Virus record (IMG/VR): IMGVR_UViG_3300027759_000422
Coordinates: 1 to 23,955 of that record
DNA: 23,955 bases
Strand: one strand, 5' to 3'
From: a virus
The notes beneath the pieces are model-generated. The model was not told the origin of the DNA and searched no databases. It worked only from the letters and a program-made list of their open reading frames with translations. Below, piece by piece: positions 21,084 through 23,442 of this stretch. The position numbers and the translations under genes were made by a program. Every line of letters begins with the position of its first letter. Positions within the stretch are counted from its first letter, which is position 1.

Positions 21084-21113
21084 TAATGATATGGGTCATC
21101 CACTATGATTTAG

Positions 21114-22505: not shown

Positions 22506-22524
22506 TGTCTAGGCGTACTAGACA
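22506..22524. promoter_or_regulatory. TGTCTAG palindrome, copy 5
   Basis: TGTCTAGGCGTACTAGACA, extended by T and A to 21 bp. It lies between the terminator of the 192-aa gene and the promoter at 22409-22437, about 70 bp upstream of that -35. Confidence 0.8.
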
Positions 22525-22545
22525 AATAAAATAAAATAGAACTAG

Positions 22546-22565
22546 CCCTCACCTTTCGGTGAGGG
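22546..22565 (-). terminator. leftward terminator with GAAA tetraloop
   Basis: Read leftward: CCCTCACC-GAAA-GGTGAGGG, a perfect 8-bp GC-rich stem capped by a GNRA loop. It is followed by CTAGTTCTATTTTATTTTA, which is T-rich though not an unbroken T tract. It lies 19 bp after the stop of the 192-aa gene and would make that gene a single-gene transcript. Confidence 0.75.
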
Positions 22566-22573
22566 TAGTCCTT

Positions 22574-22590
22574 GCGTGATTACTTACTTG
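22574..22590. repeat. 17-bp inverted repeat, left copy
   Basis: GCGTGATTACTTACTTG is the exact reverse complement of 23255-23271. It spans the stop codon of the 192-aa gene. The pair brackets that gene at a distance of about 700 bp. In the leftward mRNA, the two copies would sit in the 3' and 5' untranslated ends and could pair. Confidence 0.85.
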
Positions 22591-23162
22591 CTCAACTTGT
22601 CATACGCAATCTTGAGGGATAGCGCAATCTTGTCGAGTTCTGCCTTTGTGAACTTGCCTGTCTCGATTGCGTTTGCAATCTTGTCGGCTTTTGAGTCTTT
22701 TGGCAATGTATTAGCCTTGCGTCTGTTTTTCTTGGCTAATACTGCTGGGTGAGACTTGGTGCTTACTGCCTTGAGTTGTGAAACTTTGTTCACTTTGTTT
22801 AACTCGGTAATTCCCATCCCATTATCAAGATTGAACTTGATATCGGCAATGCTAATACCCTCGGCATCCACCTTGTCAGACCCCACTCGTTCGAGCATCT
22901 TGCCTATTGCAAGATATCGATTGATTGTGTCCTTGTTCACGATTGCCTTGCCCTCGCTTTGGTTCGCTGGGTGTTCGACAATCTCGCGAATAGTCATCCC
23001 TTGCTTAGTTGCTTGCATAATTGCTAAGCAAGCATCGGCAATAGGTGTCTTAGATGCGTTTACGGCATCTACGATTGCGCGTTCTGAATAGTGCGCTTTG
23101 ACTACTAAGGTCACAACTTGTTCGAGTGTGACTTGTTCTACTTGTTCGATAGTGCTTGTCAT
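22584..23162 (-). CDS. first early gene: putative DNA-binding protein
   Basis: A 192-aa Lys/Ala-rich protein. Residues 44-92 (CLAIMQATKQGMTIREIVEH, then NKDTINRYLAIGKMLERVG) have the helix pattern of a helix-turn-helix, and 100-130 (GISIADIKFNLDNGMGITEL) could be another. The C-terminus is basic and helical. It has its own leader, promoter and terminator and is bracketed by 17-bp inverted repeats. Being first in the early region and close to palindromes 5-7, it is my leading candidate for their binding protein; that is inference. No family is recognised. Confidence 0.75.
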   Translation of the reverse strand: MTSTIEQVEQVTLEQVVTLVVKAHYSERAIVDAVNASKTPIADACLAIMQATKQGMTIREIVEHPANQSEGKAIVNKDTINRYLAIGKMLERVGSDKVDAEGISIADIKFNLDNGMGITELNKVNKVSQLKAVSTKSHPAVLAKKNRRKANTLPKDSKADKIANAIETGKFTKAELDKIALSLKIAYDKLSK

Positions 23163-23220
23163 ATTGACCTAGTTTCTAGTTCTATATTGCAAGCATCTCG
23201 CCTTGAGATGCCCCTCAAAT

Positions 23221-23239
23221 CGTCTAGGAGTACTAGACA
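23221..23239. promoter_or_regulatory. TGTCTAG palindrome, copy 6
   Basis: CGTCTAGGAGTACTAGACA, one mismatch from the family consensus at its first base. It lies in the predicted leader of the 192-aa gene, 59 bp before its start and directly adjacent to another palindrome (23240-23259). Confidence 0.78.
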
Positions 23240-23259
23240 ACTTGAGGCACACCTCAAGT
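23240..23259. promoter_or_regulatory. ACTTGAGG palindrome in the early leader
   Basis: ACTTGAGG-CACA-CCTCAAGT, perfect 8-bp arms. It abuts palindrome copy 6 and shares 23255-23259 with the right 17-bp inverted repeat, so hairpin formation here and long-range pairing would compete. Confidence 0.65.
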
Positions 23260-23271
23260 AAGTAATCACGC
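23255..23271. repeat. 17-bp inverted repeat, right copy
   Basis: CAAGTAAGTAATCACGC, the exact reverse complement of 22574-22590. It lies in the predicted 5' leader of the 192-aa gene, and identity ends sharply at both sides. Confidence 0.85.
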
Positions 23272-23363
23272 TATGGAGTTATCTTTCATTTTGTCTTGGT
23301 TCTCGGAGAGAGAGTGCGAGGCCTGTCGGCCCTTGCTTAACCTCTAACGGAGTGACACTAACA

Positions 23364-23392
23364 ACATTACACGATGCCCCCCCATAGGTCAA
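23364..23392 (-). promoter_or_regulatory. leading early promoter (leftward)
   Basis: On the minus strand, TTGACC (23392-23387), a 17-bp spacer containing seven G, and TAATGT (23369-23364). TATTTGAC is shared with the promoter at 22409-22437. It would transcribe the 192-aa gene with a leader of about 195 nt. Palindrome copy 7 lies 31 bp upstream of the -35. Confidence 0.6.
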
Positions 23393-23422: not shown

Positions 23423-23442
23423 TGTCTAGGCCGTACTAGACA
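23423..23442. promoter_or_regulatory. TGTCTAG palindrome, copy 7
   Basis: TGTCTAGGCCGTACTAGACA, matching the 20-bp consensus. It is the only copy upstream of the leading early promoter and thus not inside the early transcripts predicted here. Confidence 0.8.

Follow-up and report, generated by a model that had tools for sequence, protein, structure and literature searches.

The viral DNA considered here, the 23,955 nucleotides (nt) that form positions 1 to 23,955 of IMG/VR record IMGVR_UViG_3300027759_000422 (hereafter, the window), contains an early transcription unit on its minus strand whose first gene, encoding a 192-amino-acid (aa) protein, lies within an exact inverted pair of 17 base pairs (bp): GCGTGATTACTTACTTG at 22574-22590 and its reverse complement at 23255-23271. 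A first-pass annotation, made from the sequence alone, had described perfect repeats bracketing the gene, with one arm covering the stop codon; both arms are indeed exact, and since the gene spans 22584-23162 on the minus strand, the downstream arm includes its stop codon (22584-22586). The upstream (leader) arm begins within a boxA-like element, the 3′ end of which (GCGTG) supplies the first bases of the arm.

Across the whole window, with up to three mismatches allowed, no further GCGTGATTACTTACTTG sites were found besides the two arms (0.08 expected from shuffling). Among 300 order-2 Markov simulations of the window, an exact 17-bp inverted pair arose within 1 kb in two and anywhere in 13; a second such pair in the window (2946/15377, with arms 12 kb apart) looks like chance. 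Thus, with 2/300 simulations giving a pair that close, the window by itself is not decisive, and the earlier statement that the repeat is very unlikely by chance holds there only in the weaker sense of moderate rarity. The doubt is removed by the relatives, the conserved position and covariation of whose arms refute a chance repeat without function, which we regard as having practically no probability.

Relatives were gathered by searching viral contigs with protein and DNA patterns and then via the neighboring terminase (53-80% identity for the distant relatives); a phage search with the 192-aa protein or the DNA of the region returned no match. In the close relatives, with first-gene proteins 78-87% identical to that of the window, all arm differences preserve RNA pairing (G-U at position 13 in contig L008, U-G at position 14 in L004, and G-C at position 13 with U-G at position 15 in L003). 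In the motif-bearing distant relatives, the gene that comes first in the leftward direction is distantly homologous to the one in the window (22-24% identity; in a profile comparison, probability 93% and E 2.9e-7); the bracketed gene is the orthologous first leftward gene adjoining the terminase. The motif AACTC(A/C)ATAGCG is present in 16/16 units from 16 contigs, which were chosen for the motif together with the 3′ region of the gene, and in 15 of them the leader arm lies directly 3′ of the motif and is complementary to the 3′ end of the gene across the stop codon. In the units with arms, the arm starts in the last bases of the motif (two bases later in L054), and the helix length ranges across relatives from 11 to 18 bp.

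The leader and trailer strands are complementary, and this is backed by covariation. MAFFT gapped the short concatenated arms, and covariation was instead scripted in a fixed register, using 11 distinct rows from the 15 units (four identical rows were dropped, and L096, which has no trailer, was left out). Standard pairs occupied 140 of the 143 cells, with double changes at 8 of the 13 helix pairs; none of 2000 whole-trailer shuffles reached 140 pairs (mean 98.8), and registers slid by 1-3 paired only 32-59 of the 143 cells. Three lineages carry different arm sequences in the same place with complementarity kept, the distant ones having GCGTTTATTGTGC with GCACAATAA(A/G)CGC and GTGCAACTTATG with CATAAGTTGCAC, and arms swapped across lineages form 4-6 Watson-Crick pairs vs 9-17 when matched. 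Furthermore, whole-transcript folding gave an arm pairing probability of 0.83-1.00 in 14/16 transcripts. The suggestion of the first-pass annotation that the ends of the mRNA could pair is therefore upheld, and the conservation and covariation of the arms, whose absence it had named as grounds for abandoning the idea, are both present.

The same comparisons bear on a DNA-level element, in which the arms would be inverted binding sites, possibly of the encoded protein, or the recombination ends of the invertible or mobile cassette that had earlier been offered as another reading. Such an element would suit exact inverted repeats flanking one gene, a gene product that is probably a DNA-binding regulator, and the presence of other palindromes in the region. 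However, a single orientation is seen in all units, with orthologous neighbors: the segment is inverted or missing relative to them in 0/15 arm-bearing units, and the comparison of related phages for presence or absence of the bracketed gene found it beside the terminase throughout. The arms are wholly different between lineages while remaining complementary, most mismatches within the helix read as G-U in the sense RNA (and in the window clade and the L038/L044 type the imperfect positions of the helix are of this kind), and the repeated operator-like palindromes have another sequence than the arms. A DNA-level element is thus highly improbable.

The identity of the motif beside the leader arm was overlooked in the first-pass annotation, whose interpretation is in this respect incomplete. 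One phage form of the motif, GARAACTCAATAGCGT, was searched in one genome per species (84,980 species) and returned at least 119 stretches; among the 80 examined, a 16S rRNA start lies within 900 nt downstream in 15, a further 17 are too close to the locus end to judge, and the remaining matches, mostly in unrelated genomes, look like chance. In the freshwater Actinobacteria IMCC19121 and LanE43, which we take to belong to the acI group, TTGAGAACTCAACAGCGTG is found in the leader of the ribosomal RNA (rrn) operon and GAAAACTCAATAGCGT directly before 5S. Judged by this position in rrn leaders, the phage motif is the boxA of the actinobacterial rRNA operon, boxA being the name that we presume to apply to this string; it matches the rrn type in sequence and stands in sense orientation in the leader of 16/16 units. 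A terminase 54% identical is carried by a phage assembled with LanE43, which makes freshwater acI Actinobacteria a plausible host group. A leader-peptide mini-open reading frame (ATG AAA GAT AAC TCC ATA GCG TGA, 23266-23289, ending in the leader arm) was also considered and rejected: relatives do not keep the frame intact (ATGAATTAA in L035), and thus the RNA motif, rather than a peptide, is what is conserved. L036 and L038 have a second AAAACTCAATAG-like string, which precedes the early promoter and lies ~200 nt upstream of the principal boxA.

The rRNA operons also provide a precedent for the arms. Of 23 loci with a 16S start, 13 could be tested and 10 were dropped because the 16S end was lacking or the trailer was short; two of the 13 (L122 and L124) are contigs of one strain. 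In 13/13 of these actinobacterial units, pairing links ACTCAA(T/C)AGCG plus its 3′ flank to a conserved motif of the 16S trailer, G(T/C)TGTTGGGT, or to the neighborhood of that motif, with runs of 12-27 when G-U is counted, shuffle p ≤0.02 in 11/13, and duplex z of −2.6 to −7.0. The phage layout, with boxA and an arm in the leader and the complement in the trailer, is therefore the layout of the host 16S unit, and in the actinobacterial operons boxA itself joins the pairing. In L238, L239, and other rrn units, the leader boxA and the conserved spacer motif G(T/C)TGTTGGGT are complementary when G-U is allowed, so that boxA occupancy and leader-trailer pairing would be mutually exclusive in rrn operons. 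In E. coli, according to PMC10250234, the Nus complex has been proposed to tether boxC near boxA until the trailer emerges; the boxA/boxC helix described there likewise has a leader boxA and an arm just downstream that pairs with a trailer past the wrapped RNA, but its length in Enterobacteriaceae exceeds 30 bp. In the phage unit the trailer overlaps the stop codon, and the helix is followed by a terminator instead of by another rRNA. Thus, the phage helix has the complementarity of a leader-trailer helix and a leader strand adjoining boxA, and works like the rrn helix without belonging to that class, because it wraps a protein-coding sequence (192 aa in the window) and not an rRNA.

A further case was obtained by scanning viral contigs for AAAACTCAATAGCGT, which gave 107 stretches; besides the units already known, these contained a single new kind, L351. 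This GC-rich contig, the nearest terminases to which are those of Arthrobacter and Gordonia phages (33-35% identity), has a perfect 20-bp helix around a 110-aa gene; the helix takes in CTCAATAGCG of boxA together with the 3′ flank, and its trailer arm lies ~15 nt past the stop codon. Judged from its sequence, L351 is an independent case of a boxA-anchored helix. In L378, a boxA leader is present and a trailer was not found.

Overall, the best explanation of the arms, proposed mechanism included, is that they are the two strands of a boxA-anchored RNA helix joining the leader and trailer of the first early gene's mRNA; we put its probability at roughly 0.7. The pairing, the covariation, the boxA match, and the matching rrn geometry are observations, from which the following course of events may be proposed. 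boxA in the nascent RNA would recruit the host NusB-S10 and other Nus factors to RNA polymerase, as the motif suggests, and the arm beside it would stay at the RNA exit while the transcribed gene loops out. Once the polymerase reaches the end of the gene, the emerging trailer arm would pair with its leader counterpart, in the way that has been proposed for boxC and the trailer of rRNA operons. Because the helix takes in the 3′ end of boxA, this pairing would be expected to dislodge or remodel the antitermination complex immediately ahead of the terminator, and would leave a message with base-paired ends, possibly as an RNase III substrate or as a form of protection. The helix would accordingly function in resetting antitermination, or in processing or protecting the message. 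Release of the complex at the trailer is favored over mere end protection because the helix starts in or next to the last bases of boxA, because the L351 helix covers most of boxA, and because a terminator-like hairpin follows the helix in acI-type phages (wherever the contig extends far enough; that of L031 stops short).

Several observations weigh against this explanation. The overlap between helix and boxA core is small in the window's clade, at 3 nt, and the boxA of the window carries C in place of the A found in most rrn copies (AACTCCATAG), which leaves Nus binding to it uncertain. L096 retains boxA and the leader arm and has lost the 3′ end of the gene along with the trailer, and the helix is therefore not essential there. 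The arms of L054 are complementary over 12 bp, yet their predicted ensemble pairing is 0.00; this contig also lacks the first two helix pairs, and a C-A mismatch occupies the second pair in L035, L046, and L109. The rrn pairing leans on many G-U pairs, with Watson-Crick runs of just 5-11. Finally, among the 15 of 17 fetched actinophages in which arms could be tested (L415, with 45 nt of sequence downstream, and L423, with no strict boxA, were left out), complementary arms exceed shuffled arms in 0/15, indicating that boxA does not require the helix.

These named actinophages (FlowerPower, Lika, Bantam, Adzzy, and others) share with the acI-type units a sense-strand boxA motif, mostly in the leader of an early gene, and differ from them in lacking a complementary trailer; thus, the rrn-type boxA is common in early leaders, whereas the leader-trailer helix is a special elaboration. 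A BLAST search of 50,697 phage records with rrn boxA gave 63 matches for the Sinomonas query and 101 for the acI query, of which 54 and 98, respectively, are actinophages by the first word of their name; most of the places listed fall in unannotated stretches. Early leaders with an rrn-type boxA were seen in many Mycobacterium, Streptomyces, Arthrobacter, Gordonia, Rhodococcus, and Nocardia phages (e.g., L408-L417 and L419-L425), and in SirSheldon the element sits among tRNA genes.

A serious rival is that the helix chiefly processes or stabilizes the message, either as an RNase III cleavage site (PMC3848588) or as an exonuclease shield of both ends, with boxA serving antitermination only. The long hairpin that abuts the leader arm, and could stack with it, would fit this reading, but the placement of the arm directly on boxA and the inclusion of boxA in the L351 helix are then left unexplained. 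In addition, a helix of 11-18 bp is short for RNase III. Processing or stability as the chief role is accordingly possible but on balance doubtful.

Control of translation, in which trailer-leader pairing would tie termination at the stop codon to events at the start, either initiation or repression, is a less probable alternative still. It draws on the position of the stop codon inside the trailer arm in all 15 units with arms, on a sister group without boxA (L039, L043, L093, and L069) that has a local hairpin of varying stem around the stop codon of the same gene, another way to place that stop codon in RNA structure, and on the repression of suhB translation by boxA in E. coli (PMC5725501). 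The leader arm, however, ends ~70-90 nt upstream of the probable start codons and leaves them uncovered, the stop codon of L351 is upstream of the arm, and the register of the arm relative to the stop ranges from 4 to 10 nt.

With respect to other known systems, the boxA-anchored helix resembles the lambdoid nut sites (boxA-boxB with the phage N protein) in having boxA in an early phage leader, where it would recruit host Nus factors, but the boxA it contains is the rrn type of the host, and its leader is paired with a distal trailer; no boxB or N protein was identified, although no search aimed at either was made. It shares a boxA in the leader of a protein-coding mRNA with suhB-type mRNAs, for which no leader-trailer helix is described in the accessible part of PMC5725501. 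Open PubMed Central texts, as far as their retrieved portions extend, present rrn leader-trailer helices and boxA-regulated mRNAs as known; in the same portions of that literature, to which subscription papers do not belong, neither boxA in actinophages nor a leader-trailer helix in a phage mRNA was found described.

With the phage unit, the boxA-anchored leader-trailer helix is available in a small natural setting that codes for protein. The helix of rRNA operons is inseparable from ribosome assembly, whereas a phage mRNA allows direct questions and could show whether the Nus complex tethers the leader to aid end pairing and whether pairing stops antitermination; the rrn-type boxA is furthermore indicated as a common feature of actinophage early leaders. 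A broader and more tentative idea is that actinophages have copied the host rRNA-operon architecture for a protein gene, with boxA loading the Nus complex and trailer pairing unloading it at a set point, as a self-timed switch limiting antitermination to one cistron; in host rrn operons, where 16S and 23S each have a boxA of their own, the same reset may act between the two.

Table 1. Features of the early unit in the window
Feature	Position	Strand	Remarks
Operator-like palindrome GTCTAG-N6-CTAGAC, upstream of promoter	23424-23441		One of 7 such sites in the window
Likely promoter, TTGACC-17 nt-TAATGT	23364-23392	-	Putative, read from sequence; absent from the consensus-scan list
boxA-like element GAAAGATAACTCCATAGCGTG	23267-23287	-	Matches actinobacterial rrn boxA
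Leader arm GCGTGATTACTTACTTG	23255-23271	-	Register conserved in relatives
Long leader hairpin	23202-23258	-	Starts in the final bases of the arm; its tip bears an operator palindrome (23222-23238)
First early gene, 192 aa	22584-23162	-	Stop codon 22584-22586
Trailer arm CAAGTAAGTAATCACGC	22574-22590	-	Contains stop codon TAA
Probable terminator, hairpin CCCTCACCGAAAGGTGAGGG and U-rich tail	22524-22565	-	8 nt past the trailer arm
Operator-like palindrome	22507-22523		Directly past the terminator

The probable terminator of the window is imperfect, a perfect hairpin (22546-22565) being followed by a broken U-tract, and the consensus scan did not list it; versions with a strong U-tract occur in relatives. 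The product of the first gene is a probable helix-turn-helix DNA-binding protein, as judged by eye and from its resemblance to the L042 family; no significant match for the first-gene proteins was found in Pfam or PHROGs. Seven GTCTAG-N5/6-CTAGAC palindromes occur in the window, all in its last 5 kb (18938, 21002, 21777, 22203, 22507, 23222, and 23424), and relatives have different palindromes (TGTTTCTAATAGAAACA, TTTCTAATAGAAAG, and GTCTTAAGAC) at comparable places. These are probably operators of the first early gene product that change along with it. The units also carry a long hairpin directly 3′ of the leader arm with an operator palindrome at its tip, which may function as an element of the RNA, as an extended operator, or in both ways; an alternative leader hairpin, GCATCTC/GAGATGC, is present as well. 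Elsewhere in the window, an 18-bp direct repeat, TAGTTACACCATATCTTT, occurs at 21111 and 21137, 26 bp apart, at the 3′ end of an 81-aa gene.
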